DNA from: Pseudomonas sp. HMWF032
Lineage (GTDB): Bacteria > Pseudomonadota > Gammaproteobacteria > Pseudomonadales > Pseudomonadaceae
Length of the DNA: 64,000 bases
Assembly: GCF_003060885.1 (NCBI RefSeq)
Contig: NZ_QAIG01000005.1
Location: forward strand, 953,093-1,017,092
Direction of reading: 5' to 3'
The notes beneath the pieces were generated by a model that did no database searches, was not told the origin of the DNA, and saw only the letters and a program-made list of their open reading frames with translations. Made by a program: the position numbers and the translations under genes. Below are positions 6,429 through 33,445 of the stretch, one piece after another; position 1 is the stretch's first letter; the number at the start of each line of letters is the position of its first letter.

Positions 6429-8387
6429 TTAGCGTTTGCTGAGCCGCTCGTCAGGCAAGGGCGTGGGATGCCAGGCAATCAAGTGTTTCTGGAAGGCATG
6501 GCTGGCGCCCTGGTAATAGGCGATATCACGGCGCAACAAGCTGTCGCTGGCGGAGCTTGAATACTCATGACTCAGTCCGAGCGCATCGTCGTGCCGACGC
6601 ATACCGCGACGCGGACTGAGAATGGCCAGGTCGGTGCCATCGAACAGGCCCAAGTGCTGGTAATTGCCAATCAGCGCGCGACCAGGTGCGTGGTCTTCGC
6701 GCAGCACGTTGCGGCCAAAGAAGGTTGAGCTGTAGTCGACATTCAGCAGGCCCAACAAGGTCGGTGCCAGGTCGATCTGGCTAGCTACCTCGCTGAACTC
6801 ACGCGGCTCGATCAACGCTGGCGCGTAGATAAACAGCGGAATGTGATAGTTGGCCACCGGTAGGTCTTCATGGCCGGCGCTACCCGCCGTATGATCCGCC
6901 ACGAAGACGAACACGGTCTGTTTGAACCAGGCCTTCTCTCGGGCCTGCTGGAGGAACTGGCCAATCGCGTAGTCGGTGTACTTCACAGCGCCTTCGCGGC
7001 CATCACCAGACGGGATGTCGATACGCCCTTCGGGGTAGGTATATGGCCGGTGGTTGGAGGTGGTCATCAGTTGCAGGAAGAAGGGTTTGCCTTGGGCATG
7101 GTCAGCGTCGGCGACCTTGATGGTTTGCTGGTAGATGTCTTCATCGGACATGCCCCAGGCGTTCTTAAACACCATGTCGCTTTCGGCCACGCTGCTCTGA
7201 TCGACGATGCGGTAGCCATTACCACCGAAGAAGGCATTCATGTTGTCGAAATAACCGCGTCCGCCGTAGATGAATACGCTGTCATAGCCGAGGGCATTGA
7301 ACTGCTGGCCAAGGCTGCCATAACCAGACTCACGGCCAATGCGCTTGACGATGGAGCGCCCCGGCGTCGGTGGTATGGATAAGGTAATCGCCTCCAGGCC
7401 GCGGTCGGTACGTGTACCGGTGGCGTAGAAGTTACTGAAGCTCAGGCTCCGCTGGCGCAACTCATCCAGATTTGGGGTCAGACCTCTCGTATCACCGAAG
7501 CTGCCGAGGTATTTGGCACTCAGGCTTTCGATGGTCACCAACACCACATTCAGGGGCTGTGGCTTACCTGGGTTGTCGATCAGCCGGCGAATGTCCTGCG
7601 GGTCGCTGCCAATAAAGCGGGCATTGGGCTCACGCACTTCATCGCGCAGCAGGTTGGCCACTTCTTGCTTGGGCAGAGTTGCGTAGAACTGCTGGTAGTT
7701 CAGTTCGTTATTGCGGAAGGCGGCGAAGAACTGGAAAGGACCGTTGCTGGCCAACTCCCGCTGGTAGGTGTTGCCACCCAGACCGCGCGGCGTGTCCTGA
7801 CCAATCGACAGGCCGTTCAGTCCGGTCAGCAAACACAGTAGCGCGAGGCTTGTAAACGCACGACCTCGGGGCAAAAGAGGTGCGTTAAATGCAGCTTCCA
7901 AAAGCTTATTCAGTGCAACGCTGGTACCTGTGGCGATAACCGCGAGCAGCGCAATCAGGGGGTAGATCGGGTAGGACTCTAGGATGTTGTTGATCACTTC
8001 TTCTGAGTAGACCAGGTAATCCACGGCGATAAAGTTGAAGCGCACACCGAACTCATCCCAGAACAACCATTCGGCCACCGCAGTGAACAACATCGCGAAC
8101 AGGCTGATGCCCACCAGCCCAATGAGCAGCCGTTGGTGCCAGCGCCGCCGCCATAAACTGGCCGGACACATGAACAGATACAGCGCCAAGGGCAAGATGG
8201 CGTAAAGCAGAAAACCCAGGTCGTAGATCAGGCCAATGCCATAAACGCCGGCCAGCTGCAGCAGGCTTACGTTGGCATCAGCAAGGTGGCTGGCCAGCAA
8301 TAAGCAGCGGGTCAGGAAGAACACCGCTAGCCATGACAGCACGATGATGGACAGGTAGCGAAGTTGAGCGTAATGAAGCTGAGGCAT
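6429..8387 (-). CDS. LTA synthase-like sulfatase-family membrane enzyme
   Basis: The protein (652 residues) has about five N-terminal membrane helices followed by a periplasmic alkaline-phosphatase-superfamily domain starting VVLVTIESLSAKYLGSFGD. The catalytic threonine region is TGTRTDRGLEA, and a late VADHTAG supplies metal ligands. Relatives transfer phosphoglycerol or phosphoethanolamine groups to envelope polymers; the exact donor and acceptor are unknown here. The start at 8387 was chosen for its AAGGATC ribosome site and the hydrophobic N-terminus. It is first in the operon with the PAP2 enzyme and the lipoprotein. It is transcribed away from colR across a gap of about 107 bp, so shared control by ColR is plausible. 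Confidence 0.85.
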   Translation of the reverse strand: MPQLHYAQLRYLSIIVLSWLAVFFLTRCLLLASHLADANVSLLQLAGVYGIGLIYDLGFLLYAILPLALYLFMCPASLWRRRWHQRLLIGLVGISLFAMLFTAVAEWLFWDEFGVRFNFIAVDYLVYSEEVINNILESYPIYPLIALLAVIATGTSVALNKLLEAAFNAPLLPRGRAFTSLALLCLLTGLNGLSIGQDTPRGLGGNTYQRELASNGPFQFFAAFRNNELNYQQFYATLPKQEVANLLRDEVREPNARFIGSDPQDIRRLIDNPGKPQPLNVVLVTIESLSAKYLGSFGDTRGLTPNLDELRQRSLSFSNFYATGTRTDRGLEAITLSIPPTPGRSIVKRIGRESGYGSLGQQFNALGYDSVFIYGGRGYFDNMNAFFGGNGYRIVDQSSVAESDMVFKNAWGMSDEDIYQQTIKVADADHAQGKPFFLQLMTTSNHRPYTYPEGRIDIPSGDGREGAVKYTDYAIGQFLQQAREKAWFKQTVFVFVADHTAGSAGHEDLPVANYHIPLFIYAPALIEPREFSEVASQIDLAPTLLGLLNVDYSSTFFGRNVLREDHAPGRALIGNYQHLGLFDGTDLAILSPRRGMRRHDDALGLSHEYSSSASDSLLRRDIAYYQGASHAFQKHLIAWHPTPLPDERLSKR

Positions 8388-21602: not shown

Positions 21603-21856
21603 TCGCAATGGATGAAACATCAACACGGAGCTAAGAGTCATTGGACTCTGGTCGCGCTCACAAATACTCAACGGCCGCTTCTGTACCGAGCCCGACGGTG
21701 GCCTCCAAAAATGAAACAATTTGCAACTCTTGTGTGATTGAGAAGCTCCACACACACCTCTACATTTCGCCGGCAACGCCGGGCCCCTCTGACAGCTAAC
21801 CGCTGCCATGTCGGAGTTGCAGTTTGTATAACTTCGACACTTAGAGGAGGGGGCTC
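21603..21856. other. Leader region of the TerC/Alx gene
   Basis: These 254 bp contain no gene. A short GC hairpin (CGCCGGCAACGCCGG, near 21768) lies 75 bp upstream of the TerC start. Such genes are often preceded by a manganese (yybP-ykoY) riboswitch, but I could not match its conserved core here. Confidence 0.4.
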
Positions 21857-22849
21857 ATGACTGCCCTAGAACCGTTCTTCCTAGCCGAGTTCCTCGGCAC
21901 TGCCACCTGGTTGTGGCTCGTTTTTATCAGTATCGTCGTCAGCCTGTTGGTCTTCGACCTCGGGGTGCTGCACCGTGAGCATCGAGAAATCGGCGTTCGC
22001 GAAAGTCTATTGTTGTCCGCTGGCTATATCACGGCTGGCTTGCTGTTTGGCCTCTGGGTCTGGCAGGTCAAGGGCGGTGACGCCGGTATGGATTTCTACA
22101 CCGGCTTTCTGATCGAGAAATCGTTGTCGATGGACAACGTATTCCTCATGGCGATGATCTTCAGCTTCCTGGCCATCCCGCGTAAGTACCAGCACGAGGT
22201 GCTGTTCTGGGGCATCCTCGGGGTGATCGTGCTGCGCGCGATCATGATTGGCTTGGGTGCGGCGCTGATCGCCGAGTTCAGCTGGATTCTCTACGTGTTC
22301 GGCATCTTCCTGCTGCTGACCGGGGTGAAGATGCTGTTCAGCAAGGTCGATGCCCACCCTGACCTCAGCGAAAACCCACTGGTGAAGTTCCTGCGTAAAC
22401 ACATGCGGGTGACCGATCGTCTACATGAAGGGCGGTTCTTCGTCCGTCAGGTGGATGCCAGTGGTAAATCCGTGCTTTGGGCGACGCCGTTGTTCCTGGC
22501 CCTGGTGCTGATCGAGTGTGCCGACTTGGTGTTCGCGGTGGACAGCGTGCCGGCGATCTTCGCCATTACCCAGGATCCTTTCATCGTCTACACCTCGAAC
22601 ATCTTTGCCATCCTTGGTCTGCGTGCTTTGTACTTCGCCTTGGCGGCGATGATTCACCGCTTCGCCTACCTCAAGTACGCCCTGGCATTAGTGCTGGTGT
22701 TTATCGGCGGCAAGATCTTTCTGGTTGGCATCATCGGCAAGATTCCGGCCGTCATTTCCTTGAGCGTGACCCTGGGTCTACTGCTGGGCGGTGTGCTGCT
22801 TTCGCTTTGGAAAACCCGTTATCAGCCCCCAGCTAGCCCACAGGACTGA
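21857..22849 (+). CDS. TerC/Alx-family membrane protein
   Basis: The 330-residue protein has about nine membrane helices and the family motif EKSLSMDNVFLMAMIF, plus a second acidic site, ECADLVFAVDSVPAIF. Family members (Alx, TerC) export manganese or support metalation of exported enzymes. The start has GAGGAGGGGG just upstream. It is monocistronic, and is followed by a GC hairpin (22859-22885). Telluride-resistance genes are absent nearby, so a manganese-related role is more likely than tellurite resistance. Confidence 0.88.
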   Translation: MTALEPFFLAEFLGTATWLWLVFISIVVSLLVFDLGVLHREHREIGVRESLLLSAGYITAGLLFGLWVWQVKGGDAGMDFYTGFLIEKSLSMDNVFLMAMIFSFLAIPRKYQHEVLFWGILGVIVLRAIMIGLGAALIAEFSWILYVFGIFLLLTGVKMLFSKVDAHPDLSENPLVKFLRKHMRVTDRLHEGRFFVRQVDASGKSVLWATPLFLALVLIECADLVFAVDSVPAIFAITQDPFIVYTSNIFAILGLRALYFALAAMIHRFAYLKYALALVLVFIGGKIFLVGIIGKIPAVISLSVTLGLLLGGVLLSLWKTRYQPPASPQD

Positions 22850-22858
22850 ATCCAAATG

Positions 22859-22885
22859 GGTGGCGGCCTTCAGTCGGCTGCCACC
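22859..22885 (+). terminator. Possible terminator after the TerC/Alx gene
   Basis: GGTGGC-G-GCC and GGC-T-GCCACC pair around TTCAGTC, making a stable interrupted stem 9 bp after the stop. The following T run is poor, so termination may be partial. Confidence 0.4.
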
Positions 22886-23002
22886 TATCTAATTCAATTG
22901 CCGGGGTTTTTATAGATCCCAGATGACTGCTCTTGGCCGACAGCTGCCGGCCACGGAGGGCAGGAATCGGCCAAAAAAAGCCGCTCGAATATGTCGACGA
23001 AA

Positions 23003-23191
23003 CTAGGAGGATTCAGTCAAGCCCGTTTCCTTGGCTAGCTCTGCCGTCCTTTTGGTGCGGGCAACCACTCCCACAGCCTTTTCGATATAGGCGGCGTCTT
23101 CAGTGCCTCTGGCATCCGCGATGAACACTTCTATTGCTTCCTCATCTTCCAGCGCTCGCGCAGGATCGTAGCCATAGATTGGCTCTGTCAT
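23003..23191 (-). pseudogene. Truncated HigA-like antitoxin
   Basis: The 62-residue frame starts MTEPIYGYDPARALEDEEAI and continues to KETGLTESS, then stops. Full-length addiction-module antidotes of this type continue at this point with the recognition helix and about 35 more residues, so the DNA-binding half is missing. No toxin gene lies next to it. It is probably a decayed toxin-antitoxin remnant marking the edge of the accessory region. Confidence 0.65.
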
Positions 23192-23705
23192 TGCAGTCTC
23201 CCGCCATGTGCCAGGCGCCTGGGTTTGCAGCACCTATCTCCACCACATGATGACTGCTACCGTCTCGCCTGCTGAAAGCGCATCCGAATCGGCGAATATC
23301 TCAAGGCAGCTGCGTTGTGTCACTTTTCTGCAGCTTTCTTGCAGCTGTTGTGCGGTTTTTGCAGTAATGCTGCGTTTATCGTGTATTTCTGAGCAAGCTG
23401 CACGATAACGTCACTCTGACAACAGGTGGGTGCACTTTAACCGCCAGCGCGTTGTGCGAAGAGCTAAGGCAAGATGTGTGAAGTTAGCTAACCTCGCGAG
23501 CGGAGGTTGCAAACATTCACGAGCATTATTCGCACCGATGGTGCTCAACTCTGGGTAGCTGCCGCTATGAGGTTGGTCGTTGTGATTTAGCAGCTAAATC
23601 GAAACTCTGGTTCTTCCTGCCCTGTACCTAATTCAGCATCTGCAGCGTTGTCTTACTATTTTCAGATAGCTAATGAATCAACTACGCGCTGCTTGGCCAT
23701 CTGAA
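23192..23705. other. Gene-free region between two broken antitoxin genes
   Basis: No credible gene is seen. Two inverted repeats stand out: AACCTC-N7-GAGGTT (23490-23508), whose arms resemble MqsA operators, and GATTTAGC-A-GCTAAATC (23584-23600). The 23310-23400 part is rich in CTGCAG/GCAGC words. Confidence 0.5.
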
Positions 23706-23930
23706 TCAATCCAGGTCACGATGTGAGGTGTTCACCTCATTTTTGAATGCCTGCATCGCTGCAAAAACACGCTTAGATTCGTCTGCTTCAAGAATGGCCT
23801 CACTACAGGCCGGGCAGAAGTCTCCCTGCACTGCAGCCATTACGAGTGTTTCGCCTTTGTAGGAGTAGGGCAGGTCACGGGTGTCGTGAATGAGTTCGGC
23901 AGCACCACAAATAGGACATTTCATGCTCAT
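23706..23930 (-). pseudogene. MqsA/YgiT-type zinc-finger antitoxin, truncated
   Basis: The 74 residues start MSMKCPICGAAELIHDTRDL and keep the second CxxC (FCPACSEAILE), so the zinc-binding N-terminal domain is complete. MqsA antitoxins are about 130 residues; the C-terminal helix-turn-helix is absent and the frame ends NEVNTSHRDLD. No MqsR-like toxin is found upstream. Some stand-alone short YgiT-type proteins exist, so it could still make a small zinc protein. AGGAG precedes the start. Confidence 0.6.
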
Positions 23931-24031
23931 GGCTCCTGAAGGGGCGGTGGACCTTTCGTAACCCTAGGGCACTCTGGGCTGAGTGCCGATGTACTACCAG
24001 CGTAGGTGGGCAGGTGTGACGCCAGGGGCGG

Positions 24032-24059
24032 TTGACGGGAAGTCACAGCTGCATATAAT
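24032..24059 (+). promoter_or_regulatory. Strong sigma-70 promoter for a small RNA
   Basis: TTGACG (24032-24037) and a perfect TATAAT (24054-24059) are 16 bp apart. No reading frame follows; instead a hairpin and a T run end the unit about 57 bp after the expected start near 24066. This is among the closest matches to the sigma-70 consensus in the window. Confidence 0.7.
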
Positions 24060-24065
24060 TGGCTA

Positions 24066-24122
24066 CAACACGGCCCCTGTCGGTTGATGCGCTTCGGCGC
24101 GGAGATTGCTCAGGGGTTTTTT
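24066..24122 (+). ncRNA. Candidate structured small RNA next to the Abi_2 gene
   Basis: Transcription from the promoter at 24032-24059 would give an RNA of about 57 nt. It folds into an outer stem CCCCTG (24074-24079) with CAGGGG (24111-24116), an asymmetric internal loop and an inner stem GCGC (24089-24092) with GCGC (24097-24100). The inner stem is closed by a UUCG tetraloop with the stabilising C-G pair. Six T residues follow (24117-24122), so the outer stem doubles as an intrinsic terminator. It converges on the end of the Abi_2 gene 12 bp away. From memory, an Rfam motif called abiF RNA occurs near Abi_2-family genes; whether this is that motif needs a covariance search. Confidence 0.65.
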
Positions 24123-24134
24123 ATTGCCTGCGTT

Positions 24135-25142
24135 TTACCAATCTCGGGCCTTCCAGCCATCATCTACACCCATCCGATCTAAGCCAAGATCCAGGTGTGT
24201 CAGGTCTGGAAAGTCATTTTCCAGCAACGTTTTCAGCCGTGCCCCCCAGCTTGATGAGGGATTGATGATCTTCATCAGGTGCTGAGTCATGCACAGCAGC
24301 ATGAATGGGCGAGCCTGGCGCTGAGGGTCGTTGTGAAACGCAGCCAGTGACGGTGCTTGAGCTACTGGCGGCAGTTTCGGCTGGTCAACGATGTTGCGAT
24401 TCCAAAGCCGGCTGTGGTGCGCGCACACGTTGCGCAGGTAGTTCAGGCTACGCAGCCAGCTAGCAAAGATACGGCCATTGCTGATGTTGTACTGCGATGA
24501 AATGGTGTCTTGATCCGCTTCGGTCATGCCATCGAATAGCGTCGACAGAGTGCCAAAATCCCAAACCTCGCATGCCACCCAAACGGCCAAGGGCAGGCCG
24601 TACTTGTCTTTGTTATGGCGTATGAAATCCTCTTTGGAGCGGTTGATCAGCGTCGCATGCTTGCTCAGCCAGCCGTGATGTTTGGTCAAGCCTGTTTTGC
24701 CATCCAGCTTGCTGGAGAAGCTCTCGTGAAATAGCTCCGGTTGTAGATAGGCGAACTTGTGGTGCTTACCCAGACCATGAGAGATATCGACACGCAGGGC
24801 GATTTCAATGCGCTCCAGCGCGTCCAGGACGAGCAGCCGCAGTTTCTTATCGAACACATACAGGTCGACAGCGTTCTGGAAGGTCGTCCCTGGGCGGAAG
24901 TCGTCGAGCGGTAGCCGGTCTTGTTTGATCTTTTTGGGTTTTTTCCCGTTTTGCGGATCGAGCACGCAGCAGAGTTCTGTTCGCTCGCGGAAGGCAAACC
25001 AATAACCGCTCAGCCGGTAATAGCCGATGCGCTCCAGGTAATCCAATGCCTTGGCAGTGTCCGTGACGGTCATGCCACGAGCTGTTAGCTGATCGAGCTG
25101 TTCCTGGTAGCTTTTCCAGGGTTTTGGATAGGTCTGACTCAT
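24135..25142 (-). CDS. Abi_2-family (AbiD/AbiF-like) abortive infection protein
   Basis: This 335-residue protein has the Abi_2 signature near the N-terminus, ALDYLERIGYYRLSGYWFAF, and a C-terminal RNVCAHHSRLWNR that fits the RX4H motif of HEPN-type ribonucleases. Family members block phage growth by killing or arresting the infected cell, probably by cutting RNA. Its ATG overlaps the stop of the reverse-transcriptase gene (ATGA at 25139-25142), so it is translated from the same message. A small structured RNA is encoded convergently 12 bp beyond its end and could act as its antitoxin or guide; that is inference. Confidence 0.85.
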   Translation of the reverse strand: MSQTYPKPWKSYQEQLDQLTARGMTVTDTAKALDYLERIGYYRLSGYWFAFRERTELCCVLDPQNGKKPKKIKQDRLPLDDFRPGTTFQNAVDLYVFDKKLRLLVLDALERIEIALRVDISHGLGKHHKFAYLQPELFHESFSSKLDGKTGLTKHHGWLSKHATLINRSKEDFIRHNKDKYGLPLAVWVACEVWDFGTLSTLFDGMTEADQDTISSQYNISNGRIFASWLRSLNYLRNVCAHHSRLWNRNIVDQPKLPPVAQAPSLAAFHNDPQRQARPFMLLCMTQHLMKIINPSSSWGARLKTLLENDFPDLTHLDLGLDRMGVDDGWKARDW

Positions 25143-28100
25143 GCTCCTGTGCGTCCTTTGAAGCCCGCAGGTGCCGCTTTCTTCTCTTTGGGCACATCGA
25201 CTTTACGCGTGTTCTTGAACGCCAGTAGATCCACCTCAAAGATGCTGATCACTGCCTGGTTGTTGCCATGGACATGAGCGATCTGTCGCTCATAGTGGGC
25301 TTTCCAGGGGGCATGGGCACTGGAGCCACCATATTGCCCTGTATTGGCCAGCATTACGGGCTGATACATATGGAACTGTAGGGCTGCAGTCATGTTGTCA
25401 AAGGTGTTGATATCTGGATTCAAGGCCGCGATAACAAACCCATCACTGATGTCACGCATATCTGCGCTCAGCTTGAGGTCTGTTGCGTCATAGCAGACTG
25501 CCCCAGTCAGGTGTGCTTCGGCACCTGAATGATCCTTGAGCTGGATAATCACTTGATAGGGGCGGTGCCCCTCAACACCAGAGGATAGTTCCCACGGGAT
25601 GCCATGCTGCTTGCCCTGATAAGCGCGGATGATCTGTCTACCAGCTGCGCTTTCCTGTCGTAACAGCCACACCGCGCGGTTGATGGGCTTTTTCAGGTAG
25701 GGGTGTTCAACAAATGTTTGCCCCGCGAAGATTAAGGCTCCCGTGCTGTCTGAAAGACGATGAAGTAGCCACATGTCGTCCGGATGAATAGCAAGTTCTG
25801 GAAAGACGATGAGATCAAGTTGGTTCTTCTGTTGCGCTGATGTCTTACGATTTGCGAAGCGGCTTGCTGCCAGTTGCTGTCCAAGTAACCGGCACATGGC
25901 TGCTAGGTGTGCTCTATGCCTAGCCCGGTAGGATGCAGTCCACATCAGCGGGTCGCCACTGGAGAAGTCGCTGTCGCGAGGCATTAGCGTCTGCACCAAC
26001 GCAACCTTTAACTCACGCAGGTTGGATTTTGGGGAGCAGTCAACAGGCAACAAGTAGGCTGGCAGATTAGACTGTCTGCCGTATATGCGGCCCTGCTCAG
26101 CCAGGCGAGCTTTAACTAGTTTGAGTAAGTCTGATGGCTGGCGAACTGCAGCAAAGCCCTCAATATCCGTCCTATTGATCTCTAGCCCAGGCCACTGCAA
26201 AAGACGCATGACCAGTTCATTGAGCCATGGCGAAATTGGGGTCGGCTCCTCACCTAAACCACGGCTCAGCGGCATCAGCCCCATGCGACGTTTATACCAG
26301 CTGCTTTGCAGGCCGCGATAACGATCAAACTGCTCTTCTCGTACTGGGAAAAAGCGAGTTGTGAAGTCACTTTCGCCGATGATGGCTGAGCGCAATAGAC
26401 GTCCTAAACGGTAGGCCCAAGCCATTTCCTCTGAGCACCATGATGGTTTCTCATTCCATGGGTGCACGATCTTGTTCGGAGCTTTGACGATCAAAGCCAG
26501 TGGCGTATCTGGATGCTGAATCTTGTTCCAGTCACCACAGTCGACTGATAGCCAATCCAAGCCCAGTCCATCGTTATAAAGACAGCCGGAGTGCTCAGTT
26601 TTTAACAGTTCAGCGGCCAGTTTGAGCAATGCGTTTTCCTGAACAAACGGGTTTTCAGGATGAGCCACGATTGCCGGCAACGAGCGTTTGCCCTTGGGCC
26701 AATCTATTAATCGTGCGGATGTGTCCTGAGCATGGCCTTTAGGCAAATAGCGCTCTAGATGCTTGACCCATCCAGCTTTTCCGCTGCCCTGCCATGAGCT
26801 GTGCAGCTCTCCAAGAAGCCTCGCCTCGATCATGGCAACATCGTCAATCAGCGCATTGGCTTCGTTGACCGTTAGCCTTTGCAGCCAGTTACCCAGCCAG
26901 ATAACGAACTTATCCCGCTGTCCGGTAATTCTCATCACAAGCAGCCCGGCTGTGAGTGCGTTGTGAGCATTCGCGGTGGTTGGCGGCGTAAGGCGTAGGG
27001 CGTCATGCAATGCGCTATAGGAGGCCAGTTCTGTAGAGAGAGGCAAAGCCACTGGGTACTGCATGACAGCCAGAAAGAGAGCAGCCTGCTGATGCAGATA
27101 CCACGGGAGTGTTTCGTTCTCAGTTACCTCTAGTGCTGCCTGCAGCAGCTCTTTGCGGTAGCCCGTTATGTCCGCCGACTCTGGGTAGCTTTCTGGACGA
27201 TGCAGTCCTGTTTCTACTGCGCCGGCCCTGAGCAGATCAGCAAGCACAAACAACGCGACTTCCCGCTCGGATTGTGGGGCGGCTGGCTCTAGCTTCAGCA
27301 TCAGTGCCTGAAGAACCGGCCGCAGCAGTTTGGCAGAAGGAAATATGTCCAAGCCGCAGCGCAGAACGCTGGCCAGGGCAGGATTGCGTGACCAGCAAGC
27401 GATCAACTTACGGGCAATCGTTTCCATTTCATGATCAAGTGCCTGTCGCTCACTGACTTCAATATTAGTCAGCGCATCCTCGGCAGGTAGCTCGGGATCA
27501 GCCATGCTGCGGCGCATGCGTAATACTTGGCGTAATCGATTGGCCGCAAAGCGCTTGACGGTATCGTCACGCACGTCCGCTCGGGGCAGGGAGATACGGG
27601 CCAGCGATAAGGGGTTCTCATCGACATCGTTGGCATCATCCAGTGCGTCTGCAAGCCAAAGTAAGTGATCCAGGCTTCCAGTAGCCTGCAGCAAAGTCGC
27701 GGGGTCGGGGGCTGTGCTGATTTGCCCGTTCACCCCTCGCATAAAGCGGGAGGTACTGCCCTGAACGGCGAAGTCTTCCCAGGCGACTGCTTCTGACTTT
27801 TCCTTCTTGGTTTCCAGGCCATTCGCTGCATCTTTAAAGCAGACTCCGATGAGCATGTTTGCCCAACTGCTCATGTCTCCCGCAAGAGTTTCAAGCGCTA
27901 AGTTTTGCGCCGACTCGGTTGGAATAGCCACGACTAAGCGCATGTCATCGACATAGCGGCAGTAGTCCAGCAGCCTGGCCGAGACTGTAACGCCATTGAT
28001 TTGGATAGGAATGCCGATACCTTGGCGTAAGCTTCCAACCACCATCTGGTCGAAATCATGCATGTAAGCGTTGGCAAAGAAGCCGCTTGCTACCAAGCCC

Positions 28101-29005
28101 TGGGGGAGGCCTAGTTTGAGCTCGCTACGGCCGGCTGAATCGCTGGGGTTCCATTGCCAGCTAACGATCTTCTCAACTGCTTGCCAAAAAGGTTCGGCTT
28201 CAACCTCGGAGTAGGGGATGGCGAATTCGCTGGCATAACGTTGGTACAGCGTGCGCAAGCGGCTGACCACAGCGGACTGATTAACACAGTCATAAAACTT
28301 GGCCAGATCAAGCTTGACCACAAACAGATGCTCGTCATGCAGGCTGGGCAGTGCTTCGCGACAAACTTCTGAGGGGCGCTCCAGAAAACGCTCATAGTCC
28401 ACAAAAAACTGCGAATAGGTGGTGGCATTGCCCCAGCGAAAGCGCCCGTGCTGTTTGCCATCAGACTCTTCAAGCCAGTCGCAGAACAGCCGATTACCGT
28501 AGCTACAAACTCGCTGTCTGGCTTGGGCCTTGCTGTCGTAGCTCGCGGGGTCTGTATTGCCTTGCAGTGTTTCTACTGCGTCCGCGAGACATAGCATGAC
28601 GGCAGAAGCCAAAACCTGCTCACGAATGCTGACATGGGCTAGTGGACGTAAATCGGGCTCTGCTTGTTGAATTTCGCCATCTTTATTGACTATGGCTTTG
28701 AATTTCCAGTCGCCGCCTTCAGCTTTAGCTTTCGATGGAAAGTACCACTTGCCATTCTTTGGGGCCGGCACCAGGCGCAAAGGGCTTACTGCGCTATGGT
28801 CGTTAGTGGAAACCTGCCGCTGCCACTCTTTTAGTGTCTGCGGTAGCAGCAGGGAAACCTGCTCCAGCTCCAGAATGTCGGCATACCAATTATGTCGGCG
28901 AATGTAGGCGTCGGACTTTTTCCAAGCCTGAGCCAGAACTGCCTCATCGGCTAGCAGGTCAAGTGATGGCATCAAACGCTCATAGCGGGCATCAACAATG
29001 GTCAT
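25139..29005 (-). CDS. Reverse transcriptase-nitrilase fusion, DRT1/UG1-like defence protein
   Basis: This is a 1288-residue fusion. The reverse-transcriptase domain (about residues 120-450) has motif A FVVKLDLAKFYD (D233), motif B GLPQGLVASGFFANAYM (near 299-315) and catalytic YVDD at 351-354. A helical region of about 500 residues without recognised motifs follows. The C-terminal carbon-nitrogen hydrolase domain (about 995-1270) keeps its active site: E1070 in VFPELAI, K1132 and E1139 in YQGKQHGIPWE, and C1171 in GAVCYDATD. RT-nitrilase fusions form the UG1 group of defence-associated reverse transcriptases (DRT1). Both active sites look intact. It overlaps the remnant upstream (ATGA) and the Abi_2 gene downstream (ATGA), so the three are coupled. 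Confidence 0.9.
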   Translation of the reverse strand: MTIVDARYERLMPSLDLLADEAVLAQAWKKSDAYIRRHNWYADILELEQVSLLLPQTLKEWQRQVSTNDHSAVSPLRLVPAPKNGKWYFPSKAKAEGGDWKFKAIVNKDGEIQQAEPDLRPLAHVSIREQVLASAVMLCLADAVETLQGNTDPASYDSKAQARQRVCSYGNRLFCDWLEESDGKQHGRFRWGNATTYSQFFVDYERFLERPSEVCREALPSLHDEHLFVVKLDLAKFYDCVNQSAVVSRLRTLYQRYASEFAIPYSEVEAEPFWQAVEKIVSWQWNPSDSAGRSELKLGLPQGLVASGFFANAYMHDFDQMVVGSLRQGIGIPIQINGVTVSARLLDYCRYVDDMRLVVAIPTESAQNLALETLAGDMSSWANMLIGVCFKDAANGLETKKEKSEAVAWEDFAVQGSTSRFMRGVNGQISTAPDPATLLQATGSLDHLLWLADALDDANDVDENPLSLARISLPRADVRDDTVKRFAANRLRQVLRMRRSMADPELPAEDALTNIEVSERQALDHEMETIARKLIACWSRNPALASVLRCGLDIFPSAKLLRPVLQALMLKLEPAAPQSEREVALFVLADLLRAGAVETGLHRPESYPESADITGYRKELLQAALEVTENETLPWYLHQQAALFLAVMQYPVALPLSTELASYSALHDALRLTPPTTANAHNALTAGLLVMRITGQRDKFVIWLGNWLQRLTVNEANALIDDVAMIEARLLGELHSSWQGSGKAGWVKHLERYLPKGHAQDTSARLIDWPKGKRSLPAIVAHPENPFVQENALLKLAAELLKTEHSGCLYNDGLGLDWLSVDCGDWNKIQHPDTPLALIVKAPNKIVHPWNEKPSWCSEEMAWAYRLGRLLRSAIIGESDFTTRFFPVREEQFDRYRGLQSSWYKRRMGLMPLSRGLGEEPTPISPWLNELVMRLLQWPGLEINRTDIEGFAAVRQPSDLLKLVKARLAEQGRIYGRQSNLPAYLLPVDCSPKSNLRELKVALVQTLMPRDSDFSSGDPLMWTASYRARHRAHLAAMCRLLGQQLAASRFANRKTSAQQKNQLDLIVFPELAIHPDDMWLLHRLSDSTGALIFAGQTFVEHPYLKKPINRAVWLLRQESAAGRQIIRAYQGKQHGIPWELSSGVEGHRPYQVIIQLKDHSGAEAHLTGAVCYDATDLKLSADMRDISDGFVIAALNPDINTFDNMTAALQFHMYQPVMLANTGQYGGSSAHAPWKAHYERQIAHVHGNNQAVISIFEVDLLAFKNTRKVDVPKEKKAAPAGFKGRTGA

Positions 29006-29289
29006 GCTACAGCCTGCTCAACTAGGGTGTTGGCCAGTTGTTCATTAAGCTGACTGAGTCGGTTTAGGCGGGCTTTCAGTCGGTCGCAGAGGGTCGGCCC
29101 CTTCCATTGGCAGTAGCGTTGCCCTGGTTCGTCAGGGCTGTGCAGTTTGCCTCTGGCTATGATGCCGCCCTTAGTAAAGCTGACTTTCTCCTCGCGCACT
29201 TGCTTGTGCATGTCCCAGCCCGCTTGCCTGACAGCAGGGGCGATGTACTTGCTGCAGATGTCCCGCTCGGAAAGCGACTTTTTGTCCAT
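29002..29289 (-). pseudogene. Chimeric hsdR-hsdS remnant heading the RT operon
   Basis: The 95-residue frame joins three pieces. Residues 1-51 match HsdR from its start to RGKLHS. A short middle piece [13 protein letters not shown] matches HsdR residues 132-144. The end, LCDRLKARLNRLSQLNEQLA to VEQAVA, looks like the C-terminus of an HsdS specificity subunit. Deletions therefore fused the start of hsdR to the end of hsdS, removing everything between. Its stop codon overlaps the RT start (ATGA), so translation of this leader could feed the RT gene. It suggests that the RT-Abi genes once lay downstream of hsdS in a type I restriction operon. Confidence 0.8.
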
Positions 29290-29373
29290 AACCCCAATTC
29301 CCTTTCAAGCCGGCCTGGTCGCTCCAATCCGGCACTGCTGATCGTGCTCGATTGGCGTAAATGTACCTTGTTT
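29196..29373 (-). repeat. 178-bp duplication of hsdR 5' end and promoter region, copy B
   Basis: This copy aligns without gaps to 2943-3120 and has the same orientation. It supplies the start, ribosome site and presumed promoter of the remnant-RT-Abi operon. Similarity ends at GTACCTTGTTT on both sides. Confidence 0.88.
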
Positions 29374-29539
29374 GGCGTTAATTGGGGGCTGGCAGGGCAG
29401 TCAGATTTTGCGACTAAAGTTCGAGGGTTTGCCGATTTGGAGCAGGCGGGAGTAGGTTTCGCCTGTCGTGTTCCCAGAAGGGTCAATGATTGGCCAGTTC
29501 GAGCAGCAGTGGATGGGGCAAAAATAGTTCTGCCCCCCG
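29374..29539. other. Gap between the nuclease-NTPase gene and the RT operon
   Basis: No gene is seen. GGGGCA (29515-29520) and TGCCCC (29531-29536) form a hairpin directly after the end of the nuclease-NTPase gene and might reduce read-through into the RT operon; it has no T run on the minus strand. Confidence 0.4.
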
Positions 29540-32500
29540 TTACTGTACTTGGACTGAAGTCTCTCTCGCGCGAAATGCGGCACTCTCCATCAGTGCTAGC
29601 CGCACACAGAGAGACTCTACCGCTAGATCGCTCATAGTTCCCGCAAGGCTGCTAGATAGCTCCGAGGCCAACGCTCCATGGTTTTCCTCCTCAATCTCGC
29701 TCTTAAAACGATCGAATGCACGAGCAAGAGAGTTAGCGACTTCGATTAATAACCCTTCGTCTGGCGCATCCGTTAAGTTTTTCTCAATAAGTTGGATGTT
29801 CTGGCTGTAGCGCTCGAGGAGACTGGTTAAGAGCTCTAGTTCTGTGGAGTTAAGTTCCCTTCCTGACTCCGCACAGACTGCGGACATGGTGCTGATAGCA
29901 TCGAATGTTTCGTTATAGAGATTTAGGCTTTGATCTCTTATTGGTTGGTAAGGCAGGTCGTCTGCCCATTCGTTAGCAAAGTCTAGGCTGGGGAAAGTTG
30001 AAGAGATAAATGTCACCCCCATGGGGGCTAGATGGCCACAGATCACAGCGCCGTAACTGATTTTAGAAATGTTCTGCAAATCGGTTGCTACAGAGGTGAA
30101 GATCGCTTCAGTTGCGAGCCAGTCGGCCAGAGCATCTACCTTTAACAGAACAGCGAACTCAGCATTTGGCCAATAAATCCCTCTGTTTTCAGCCCTCGGG
30201 CGCGAGTAGACCTCTACATCGAGGCCATGCACAGCCATTGCTATTTGAATCTCTTTTCGACGGGCAGCTAGCGTGCTCTCTGCCCTTAGGTGGGCTTCAA
30301 TGGCAGCGCGTCGCAAAATGGAGTTGTGACGGCTCATAGTGCGGAAGCGGGTTGCTGCGCTGGATCGTCTTTCCGGGGCCGTTGCGGTATCGGCCAACAC
30401 CGCGTGTATATCCCAAAGGGTGTCTCGCACGTGCACCAGCGTTTCAAGGGGAGGTTCACTAGTCATGCGCCATGTCTCGGGACGTAATAGTGCTTCTGCG
30501 TCGCGTGCAAGATCGGCTGTCCTTGCCGCCATGAGCAGCGGTTTTTCAGAAACGCCATTGGTAAGTTCGTCCATGAGTTGCTGCAGGCCGGTGACGAAGC
30601 TATGAGGCTTGTCGCTATCGCTTAACTGGCCCATTTCTAACGGGCCTGAAATAGCATCTTCGATGCTAGGAGGCTGAATAAACGTTGTGAGCCAGTTGCG
30701 TACTTGGAGAAATAGTTTCCACTTCTGCCCTGGGGTTTCCATTCGGCAATAAAAGTCGCCAGCCTCTTGTAGTTTGAGTCCAATCTCCTTGATGGCTTGA
30801 GCAAGTGAGGTTGCCCGCTGAGTTTCTGTTGGGGCGGCTATCAATCTATGTATCGCCCGCCCCTGAGCACGGTTCCATGCAACCCTAGCTGGCGCAACCA
30901 ATGCCTGACGAGGCATGCGCTTCCTGTTTATAGACTGGTCTCTATAGCCTACGGGGTGTCCGTTGGGGAAAAGTGCATCCGAGATCAGGAGCTCGGCGTT
31001 AGGGACTGCTGCTGCCATGGCAGCGCAGAGGCCCACCACTTCGGCGTTTAGGTCTGGTTGAATCTCAGGGTGAATAAAGCGGATGTAGCCTGTGACACTG
31101 CATTTGCCCTCAACCTGCCCGATCACTGGGCGGGTCACCCAAGGGGTTTCGTTGTATATCCGATCAAGAAGAACCTCCGATCCGCCAGCCGCATCCACCA
31201 CCTTTTGGGCCGTCTCTAGATCAACCTCCCTTAATGTCGTTAGAAGGGCAATTAACTCATCCAAAGGCTCGTCAGCCAGACTGCCTTCTGGGATGCAGCT
31301 GACAGATGGTGGGAGCTTACAACCCGTTATTGGTAGAAGTGCTGCAGTCAGCTCATTTATGTCATTAACGTCGAGAGGTGATGGACACCAGCTACCAGCC
31401 ATCTTCTCGAAGAGTGTTTTGCGTAAGTCAGGAACGTCGACCTTGGCGAAGGCAGTCTGGGCTTCGATGACTTTTGCGAACATATCGAGACCACCCAGCT
31501 CTGGCTTTGCAAGGGTGAGCATGAAAGTGAAACTGCTAAGGCGATCATCGATCCCTGTTGATCGAGAGATTTCTAGCCATCGCTCGGCAATCCGGTCAGC
31601 AGTTGCGAGCCCTAGGCCATAGACAATCGGGATCCAGCAGTCTTTCTGGGTCGGCCTAAATCGAGCAGCCAGCCCTTCTAAGAGTGCTGTTTCTTCTTCA
31701 GGCCACCGCCTTAAAACCCTTACGATAAAGGCTGCGAATGTGCTGGCCGAAAGCGTTTCAGCGGCTGCTGCGACTGCTTTGCTGCGGGGCTCGTACAGGA
31801 TTTTTCGGATCGCTTCGTCAAGATATGTGGAGCGAATCTCATGTAGCCCTGACAATGTCCCGTTGGGCTGTGCGCGCACTGCGTGTTCGTCGATCAGTCG
31901 CTGAAGTGCTGTTGCAAATTGAAACTCATCCAGCCCAGAAAGTGTTTGGAGCAGATGCGGGTCTACAGCTGCCCCTTGTGCTGCGGCAAAAGAGATAGTT
32001 CGTAGGAGCGTTAGCTCGCCGCTACGCCCTTCTGCCAGGCGACGCCGCACTTGTTCGCGAATTGTTTCCTCAAGACGCTGACCGGCAGTAAGGAGATGGG
32101 TGTATTCGAGAAGCAAGCCCTTGCTAAGCTCAAAGGGCTCCTGCCAGTGACTGAAGGCTACTGAATCGGATGCCTGAAGCGTCTTCCAGATACGATTTGC
32201 TAAGTCTTCAGTCAGAGTGGGGCGAACCGTGGGTGTGCGGGCTGCGGTTGAGAGGGTGAAAAGGTCCTCCTCCCGAACTGTTCCAATAGCAAGGATACCG
32301 GCGTGCGCTTCTATCTCTCGAACCAGCGTATCCCACCCCACGGTTTCCTGGCGCCCCACGTCATCAATCACGAAGCCTACAGGACGGTTGGGTTCTGCCT
32401 CCAAGAGCTTTGCGAGCTGAACTAGTTTTGCTACATCGGTGGATTGCAGCTCTCGAACACGGTACCAGCGCACCGCGTGACGTGTGTGGTGCGCCGACAG

Positions 32501-33445
32501 CCAGGCCAGTGCCGACTTACCGGCTCCGGAGGGGCCTGCAACTAGTGCAAATCTTTTAGCTTCAAGGCCACCCAGGACGTCAGTCATTAGCTCCGGTCGG
32601 GCAAAGACCAAGCCGCTTCCGACATGCCCCGGAGCAACATTGATACCTTTGTAGAAGCCAGCGGCTGGCATGGGGGCGCTAAAGTCGGCTAGCTCTGCCA
32701 GGCCGGCTGTCAGTGCTAAATATCCGTTAGGATCGATGACTCCGTGGACCCCATCAATCCGCATTTGAACATCACTGCGATCTAGCGTTATCGGAGCATC
32801 GCTGGAGGCAGAATAGTTGCTATCAGCCGCATGCCCGGCCTTTTCCCTGAGTTGCTGGAGCGCGAGCCTTACGCCGGCGGGGGGCAACGGCGCATTGGTT
32901 AGAGCCTTGCAGCCCTGCTCCAGTGGATCGGTCTCTACTACAAGGTGGATGTGCGCAAGCAACGCTTCGACTAGGCCTGTGTCGTGAGGGCCTAGGGCGT
33001 CTGATAAGAGTCTCTCGAACTTACTCAGCTCTTGACCGCTATCTGCGAGCGAGACTTGCCAACCGGTATGCTCTATGCCTTCAAGTGGTCGTTCCAGCAC
33101 CAGGGCCAGCCGAATTGTGGGCTTTTTAAGCCAGTCAGATGGTAGATCTTTGGCGCTTTTGGCTAGGTGTCTGGCTGCTTCAAGTTGAGTGAAGGTGCCG
33201 TGAGGATCGTGCCGGGCCTTGAGCTGGGCCCTAAATTCATATTCCGGACCATGTAAGGTTAGATCATCGATGCCTTCTGGTATGAGATGCGTCCAAGCTG
33301 CATCGCCGCGCCAGGCCAGCACTGTGAGCCAGGTAGCGACCGCATCTTGATATCGAAAGCCGCGGCCGGAGCGGGCTCCTGATCGTGTTTTCTTCCAAAG
33401 CTCTGCATCAATCAAAAATGGCTGGGTTGAACCAGTAGCTGCCAT
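29540..33445 (-). CDS. Large predicted nuclease-NTPase defence protein
   Basis: The protein has 1301 residues. Its N-terminus carries a Cap4/DUF4297-like restriction-endonuclease pattern: GRGFRYQDAVATWL (28-41), E57-x-x-D60-D61 and Q74-L-K76. A P-loop NTPase core follows, with Walker A GPSGAGKSALAWL (304-316), Walker B PVGFVIDD (355-362) and an arginine-bearing TVREEDLF. The remaining 900 residues are helical with no recognised repeats. The architecture is that of STAND-type phage sensors in which target binding switches on a DNA-cutting domain, as in Avs proteins, but the match to a named type is uncertain. GAGGAAA precedes the start. It is 126 bp downstream of the integrase gene on the same strand. 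Confidence 0.75.
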   Translation of the reverse strand: MAATGSTQPFLIDAELWKKTRSGARSGRGFRYQDAVATWLTVLAWRGDAAWTHLIPEGIDDLTLHGPEYEFRAQLKARHDPHGTFTQLEAARHLAKSAKDLPSDWLKKPTIRLALVLERPLEGIEHTGWQVSLADSGQELSKFERLLSDALGPHDTGLVEALLAHIHLVVETDPLEQGCKALTNAPLPPAGVRLALQQLREKAGHAADSNYSASSDAPITLDRSDVQMRIDGVHGVIDPNGYLALTAGLAELADFSAPMPAAGFYKGINVAPGHVGSGLVFARPELMTDVLGGLEAKRFALVAGPSGAGKSALAWLSAHHTRHAVRWYRVRELQSTDVAKLVQLAKLLEAEPNRPVGFVIDDVGRQETVGWDTLVREIEAHAGILAIGTVREEDLFTLSTAARTPTVRPTLTEDLANRIWKTLQASDSVAFSHWQEPFELSKGLLLEYTHLLTAGQRLEETIREQVRRRLAEGRSGELTLLRTISFAAAQGAAVDPHLLQTLSGLDEFQFATALQRLIDEHAVRAQPNGTLSGLHEIRSTYLDEAIRKILYEPRSKAVAAAAETLSASTFAAFIVRVLRRWPEEETALLEGLAARFRPTQKDCWIPIVYGLGLATADRIAERWLEISRSTGIDDRLSSFTFMLTLAKPELGGLDMFAKVIEAQTAFAKVDVPDLRKTLFEKMAGSWCPSPLDVNDINELTAALLPITGCKLPPSVSCIPEGSLADEPLDELIALLTTLREVDLETAQKVVDAAGGSEVLLDRIYNETPWVTRPVIGQVEGKCSVTGYIRFIHPEIQPDLNAEVVGLCAAMAAAVPNAELLISDALFPNGHPVGYRDQSINRKRMPRQALVAPARVAWNRAQGRAIHRLIAAPTETQRATSLAQAIKEIGLKLQEAGDFYCRMETPGQKWKLFLQVRNWLTTFIQPPSIEDAISGPLEMGQLSDSDKPHSFVTGLQQLMDELTNGVSEKPLLMAARTADLARDAEALLRPETWRMTSEPPLETLVHVRDTLWDIHAVLADTATAPERRSSAATRFRTMSRHNSILRRAAIEAHLRAESTLAARRKEIQIAMAVHGLDVEVYSRPRAENRGIYWPNAEFAVLLKVDALADWLATEAIFTSVATDLQNISKISYGAVICGHLAPMGVTFISSTFPSLDFANEWADDLPYQPIRDQSLNLYNETFDAISTMSAVCAESGRELNSTELELLTSLLERYSQNIQLIEKNLTDAPDEGLLIEVANSLARAFDRFKSEIEEENHGALASELSSSLAGTMSDLAVESLCVRLALMESAAFRARETSVQVQ

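Follow-up and report, generated by a model that had tools for sequence, protein, structure and literature searches.

AbiF is a HEPN ribonuclease that is silenced by the binding of a neighboring noncoding RNA (ncRNA) (PMC12373285; reviewed in PMC12737573), and the structure of PbAbiF (PDB 8vz6) has been solved with its ncRNA bound (PMC12373285, PMC12737573). The abiF RNA RCd22 neutralizes AbiFCd in trans through direct binding and also attenuates transcription of its own toxin gene (PMC12373285), two nucleotides of a single-stranded bulge in AbiFr reportedly inhibit the enzyme (PMC12737573), and AbiD/F is the likely source of Cas13 (PMC12165695). Here, we describe a small structured RNA gene that lies convergent to an abi gene, encoding a predicted Abi_2/AbiD-family HEPN toxin, in a 64,000-nucleotide stretch of Pseudomonas sp. 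HMWF032 DNA (the window, to whose positions our coordinates refer unless another contig is named). The RNA gene almost certainly belongs to an Abi_2 toxin-antitoxin unit, and we hold with considerable confidence that its RNA serves as the cognate antitoxin to the Abi_2 HEPN ribonuclease encoded next to it; the pair would make up a type III-like AbiF/AbiFr module that has diverged and has a convergent layout.

The RNA gene and its convergent Abi_2 partner

The sigma-70 promoter of the RNA gene (24032-24059, forward strand) consists of TTGACG at 24032-24037, a 16-nt spacer, and TATAAT at 24054-24059. It agrees with 11 of the 12 consensus bases and is the only one of three promoter-like sites in 22800-29600 to exceed 9/12. 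Seven nucleotides beyond TATAAT begins the predicted type A antitoxin RNA gene (24067-24122, forward strand; 56 nt), which comprises an AACAC leader, a stem-bulge-stem-hairpin structure, and six Ts, as delineated by its fold, covariation, and a match to our model R1. The first-pass annotation, made from the sequence of the window, had claimed a near-consensus promoter, followed by no reading frame and by a 57-nt RNA starting at 24066. The promoter was borne out, no open reading frame (ORF) of at least 80 amino acids covers 24067-24122, and the six-T terminator run (24117-24122) ends where expected; the start needed correction, the 5' end being most likely A24067, the first nucleotide of the single-stranded AACAC leader (24067-24071) that we presume to be the site of transcription start. 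The sequence ATTGCCT, found at 24123-24129 of the window, frequently follows the U-tract in abi-linked copies and exceeds what a terminator needs.

The RNA folded with an energy of -27.0 kcal/mol, compared with -16.7 ± 2.8 kcal/mol for shuffled sequences (z = -3.7), and none of 200 shuffles folded equally well. An 8-bp outer stem, P1 (24072-24079 with 24111-24118), is followed by a 5' bulge U (24080), an inner stem, P2 (24081-24085 with 24104-24108), and an invariant 3' bulge CU after P2 (24109-24110), all on the forward strand. The structure is capped by the apical hairpin P3 (GCGC-UUCG-GCGC, 24088-24101), which is variable in the alignment and absent from the shortest phage copies. The first-pass annotation had described an outer stem, an internal loop, and a UUCG-capped GCGC hairpin, and this structure was borne out.

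Tail-to-tail with the RNA gene, whose end is 12 nt from the abi stop codon, the reverse strand encodes the 335-residue predicted toxin (24135-25142; Pfam PF07751, 4e-55; PADLOC AbiD, 3e-65). Its sole good relative in the PDB is PbAbiF (full-length, E = 7e-35), and the HEPN catalytic motif RNVCAH (R237...H242; 24417-24434, reverse strand) aligns with RNSCCH of that protein; 101 of 105 long homologues retain RNxCxH. When 23900-25150 was compared with unrelated plasmids by blastn, Abi_2 genes of Methylomonas, Methylobacter, Sinorhizobium, Rhizobium, and Xanthomonas were recovered, and in the first five plasmid matches the similarity started at 24054-24066, i.e., at the RNA, and continued into abi. 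A search pattern for the 5' part of the RNA and the terminator stem, AACACGGCCCCNNTCGN{20,45}GGGGTTNTT, recovered 116 stretches from the genome collection; Abi_2 adjoins the RNA in 80 of them, invariably in convergent orientation and mostly with its stop codon 3-32 nt away. With plasmid, further genome, and viral loci included, RNA plus convergent Abi_2 was present in 92 records representing 69 distinct RNAs. Because most of these records had been selected by the pattern, a second sample of genomes was taken by the Abi_2 protein alone, and all eight of its genomes with an Abi_2 of at least 55% identity have a type A RNA in the same place. The AACAC leader, which the pattern imposes on the pattern-selected set, was also kept in these protein-chosen loci. 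Nearly all full-length Abi_2 genes that we inspected have either an abiF-type RNA on their 5' side or a convergent RNA on their 3' side.

The promoter and the structure are conserved along with this arrangement. A promoter with at least 9/12 consensus bases was present in 75% of 79 abi-linked upstream regions (2% of shuffles), and the conserved TATAAT ends ∼7 nt 5' of AACAC. Across 68 distinct abi-linked sequences, 93% of the cells are paired for a structure of P1 (8 bp), U, P2 (4 bp), P3, and CU. Alignment across relatives, which the first-pass annotation had proposed as a search for compensatory change, gave a strong signal: both sides were changed in 131 cells, compared with 44.4 ± 6.4 in shuffled controls (0/500 as high) and no more than 24 with the partner slid. 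Six P1 pairs and the leader are set by the search pattern and are uninformative in this respect; the signal comes from the pairs that are free in the pattern, namely the two inner P1 pairs, the inner P2 pairs, and P3. The trinucleotide GCT (the end of P2 plus the bulge), which lay outside the first search pattern, occurs in 69/69 abi-linked distinct sequences, in 35/36 of those from genome copies without Abi_2, and in 17/18 viral ones. Model R1, built on type A RNAs only and with the window sequence as one of its 68 inputs, matches 24067-24121 at 75.8 bits. Because of the linkage to Abi_2, the covarying stems, and the conserved promoter, the RNA is not a chance feature. The RNA gene is real, and the earlier judgment that so compact a unit rarely arises by chance agrees with the poorer folds of the shuffles, the blastn similarity that starts at the RNA, and the recurrence in 116 stretches.

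The RNA gene, the promoter conservation, the covarying structure, the strict convergent linkage, the catalytic motif, and the abiF-like architecture were all observed by computation. From the homology with AbiF, we infer binding, inhibition, and release upon infection. The RNA gene would be transcribed from its own sigma-70 promoter into a short hairpin RNA ending at its own U-tract, which would bind the Abi_2 dimer by way of its AACAC leader, the junction of P1 and P2, and the conserved bulges (5' U and 3' CU), thereby keeping the ribonuclease inactive. During infection by a phage that shuts off or degrades the transcripts of its host, this short RNA would be the first to disappear, and the freed toxin would then cut RNA and arrest growth. 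The conserved U and CU bulges are presumably the natural counterparts of the inhibitory AbiFr bulge nucleotides. Attenuation is impossible in the convergent layout, and neutralization in trans therefore remains.

The same layout invites a different explanation, in which the RNA would silence abi chiefly through antisense action or transcriptional interference, being complementary to a read-through 3' untranslated region, in a type I-like manner. The two genes are convergent and only 12 nt apart, and because the hairpin lacks a U-run on the minus strand, transcription of abi probably continues across the RNA gene. Antisense complementarity, however, is perfect for any sequence and needs neither covarying stems nor invariant bulges, the bulges and stem pairs persist in the viral copies, 20 of 21 of which lack abi, and the related abiF RNA, encoded 5' of its gene in sense orientation, works in trans (PMC12373285). 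We consider this explanation improbable. Among the three roles suggested in the first-pass annotation, the cognate antitoxin is the best supported, and an antisense regulator of the abi 3' end is unnecessary since the stems covary and phage copies occur without abi.

Relation to abiF RNA and genome copies without Abi_2

Three sets of observations weigh against the antitoxin assignment. First, the Rfam abiF covariance model (RF03085), proposed earlier as a check, did not match the window at its gathering threshold (37 bits) nor even at E ≤ 10 on 81 bases, and an Rfam scan of the window and 17 relatives gave an abiF match for neither type A RNAs nor the type B RNAs described below. Second, a single convincing copy occurs in the window genome, whereas ToxIN has a repeat array and RCd22 has two motifs. 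Third, 36 of the 116 genome copies are without Abi_2 in the available stretch; five of these stretches are cut off just past the RNA, leaving ∼31 real orphans, and the RNA can thus persist without the toxin. As to class, the features of a type III-like AbiF/AbiFr module, an Abi_2 HEPN protein with the catalytic R...H and an adjacent structured RNA gene with a promoter, are both present, and the tandem-repeat antitoxin of a ToxIN-like system is replaced by a single copy.

The first-pass annotation had also suspected a relative of abiF RNA, and here the architecture and the Abi_2 partner are indeed alike, whereas the RF03085 match and the usual 5', same-strand orientation were not found. The RF03085 model is laid out as a 6-bp stem, a 1-nt 5' bulge, a 3-bp stem, and a 6-nt 3' bulge; the window RNA has the same layout, with counterparts of 8 bp, 1 nt, 4-5 bp, and 2 nt. 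In the class sample, RF03085 RNAs directly precede more distant Abi_2 genes, on the strand of the gene, and the window RNA is 3' and convergent. Type B RNAs (AACACGGCCCCCGCCTCTT...TACGCGGGGGTT and drifted versions) accompany Abi_2 genes at ∼41-52% identity, again 3' and convergent, and most of them are detected by R1 (E = 2e-5 to 2e-3). A maximum-likelihood tree of 60 Abi_2 proteins, with the RNA position of each row assigned partly by eye, split 27 with a 3' convergent RNA plus the outlier L223 from 32 with a 5' RNA (support 100/100). Given the two separate clades, the antitoxin gene appears to have changed place between the branches, its sequence drifting beyond the reach of RF03085. Partner, leader, and layout are alike in type A/B and RF03085 RNAs and suggest common descent, with no model match between them. 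The outlier L223 sits in the convergent clade on a long branch and has a type-B-looking RNA 5' of its Abi_2 gene on the same strand; it is a possible intermediate or reversal.

The genome orphans are candidates for solitary antitoxins, remnants, or anti-addiction copies, and their neighbors include no recurrent convergent gene that would serve as an alternative toxin. The RNA of these 36 loci (e.g., L052, L092, L106, and L141; Pseudomonas) comes with a promoter. Type A and type B RNAs also occur 0.1-1.9 kb apart on one strand, in three Halomonas loci (L039, L111, and L124) and in L213; the Halomonas loci are without Abi_2 and near a HIRAN-domain gene, with HipA_C also present at L124.

Phage copies and a possible decoy function

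In viral contigs, the type A pattern matched 21 stretches, 20 of them without Abi_2, and the pattern-free P1 pairs were formed in 35 of 36 cases in distinct viral copies, compared with 19.2 in shuffles (0/2000). A looser viral pattern gave 31 stretches; some of these copies are only ∼35 nt long and lack P3, so leader, P1, bulges, and P2 constitute the core of the RNA. Terminases, a packaging protein, a GH19 lysin, and tRNA genes are among the neighbors of the viral copies, and a T4-late-promoter-like ATAAATA lies at most 25 nt upstream of 7 out of 27 (background, 0.002 per copy). Contig L166 has two copies in tandem, one of type B and one of type A (8172-8289 of that contig, minus strand); the strict type B pattern matched no viral contig. 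The canonical abiF RNA pattern was found in 99 viral stretches, 63 of which extend more than 1.3 kb on both sides, and none has Abi_2 within 600 nt according to a profile that could overlook remote Abi_2 members at phage copies; the same profile found Abi_2 at 12 of 20 bacterial RF03085 loci. The IMG/VR contigs L154-L185 and L259-L357 carry type A or canonical abiF RNA with Abi_2 absent. One phage abiF RNA, from cyanophage S-CREM1, is already on record, and a decoy function was not proposed for it. Against INPHARED, the window stretch and 23 phage elements gave no blastn match, one phage element searched alone gave chance-level matches only, and no named phage with a type A RNA was found; tblastn of the genes beside the phage copies returned remote relatives only.

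These copies suggest a decoy antitoxin as the simplest account, as for pseudo-ToxI (PMC3475682) and the Racrs (PMC10651486). By that analogy, it is somewhat probable that AbiF antitoxin RNAs unaccompanied by the toxin are widespread in phages and act as decoys, silencing host AbiF ribonucleases during infection, with some phages stacking different types (L166). A phage copy could also serve as a terminator. For the family as a whole, the corresponding proposal is that the RNA is a mere intrinsic terminator behind a promoter, conserved through its neighborhood; it would explain the stem-loop with its T-run and the frequent location of phage copies in intergenic regions or near tRNA genes. Yet AACAC, the U and CU bulges, and GCT are superfluous for termination, and a control pattern with a permuted leader and an unchanged stem gave 0 viral matches, compared with 21 for the type A pattern. 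We regard the terminator proposal as very unlikely.

Defense neighborhood and comparison with known systems

The abi gene is overlapped by 4 bases by that for a 1288-residue DRT1 reverse transcriptase-nitrilase (25139-29005, reverse strand; Drt1a, 1380 bits). Some DRT and retron systems, e.g., DRT9, use an ncRNA (PMC12489045), and the RNA might by this token be a template, primer, or ncRNA partner of DRT1, the remaining role suggested in the first-pass annotation. We judge this extremely unlikely: the available stretches of other type A loci, with their RNA and Abi_2, contain no DRT1 homologue, and at the DRT1 homologues of 18 further genomes from the order, R1 detects no RNA. One type B Abi_2 gene (L212, G489) lies ∼0.9 kb from a DRT1 gene, and this Abi_2 branch and DRT1 therefore share defense islands. 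Type I restriction neighbors are commoner than DRT1, a protein of the HsdM/HsdS cluster (named after its representatives) being encoded within 2.5 kb in 29 of the 92 records, a count consistent with the published description "embedded in R-M operons" (PMC3710099). Before DRT1 (region 25139-29289, reverse strand), a 95-residue ORF whose start is HsdR-like and whose end is HsdS-like is perhaps left over from a type I restriction operon that was lost. A 1301-residue protein (29540-33445, reverse strand) that belongs to no PADLOC family and matches nSTAND only weakly is a possible unrecognized defense protein. Two further structured RNAs are on the forward strand: a terC RNA (21771-21823; RF03067, 44.7 bits, above the cut-off) upstream of the gene at 21857, and a traJ-II-like RNA (23467-23574; 33.6 bits, below the cut-off of 40).

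If the antitoxin assignment is correct, the AbiF toxin-antitoxin group gains an RNA family that escapes the current Rfam model. An antitoxin gene could then lie convergently behind its toxin gene, in a branch whose RNA would have to act in trans, without attenuation. In many Proteobacteria, the Abi_2 genes, which often have type I restriction genes nearby and in the window follow DRT1, become clonable together with their likely antidote, and with the phage copies the idea of RNA decoys against AbiF can be put to a direct test. Such decoys, if true, would be an RNA counter-defense against the presumed source family of Cas13, parallel to pseudo-ToxI and the Racrs.

The locus shares with AbiF/AbiFr, as represented by PbAbiF, a full-length homologous Abi_2 HEPN ribonuclease, the RNxCxH motif, and an adjoining small structured RNA; it differs in that its RNA is 3' and convergent, has its own terminator and an extra covarying apical hairpin, and is outside the reach of RF03085. 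Compared with RF03085 itself, the long stem, 1-nt 5' bulge, short stem, 3' bulge, and linkage to Abi_2 are common to both, whereas the position and strand differ, the 3' bulge is 2 nt rather than ∼6 nt, and the model gives no match at E ≤ 10. RCd22-AbiFCd of the Clostridioides difficile prophage phi027 likewise pairs an Abi_2 toxin with a neighboring small RNA, for which neutralization is known (PMC12373285); RCd22 precedes abiF in the same orientation and has two abiF motifs, unlike the single motif on the opposite strand in the window. The phage copies, finally, resemble the pseudo-ToxI of PhiTE (PMC3475682) and the Racr RNA anti-CRISPRs (PMC10651486) as solitary copies of a host RNA component with the protein gene absent; those RNAs were tested against ToxN or Cas, whereas the copies described here are candidate decoys that resemble the antitoxins of AbiF.
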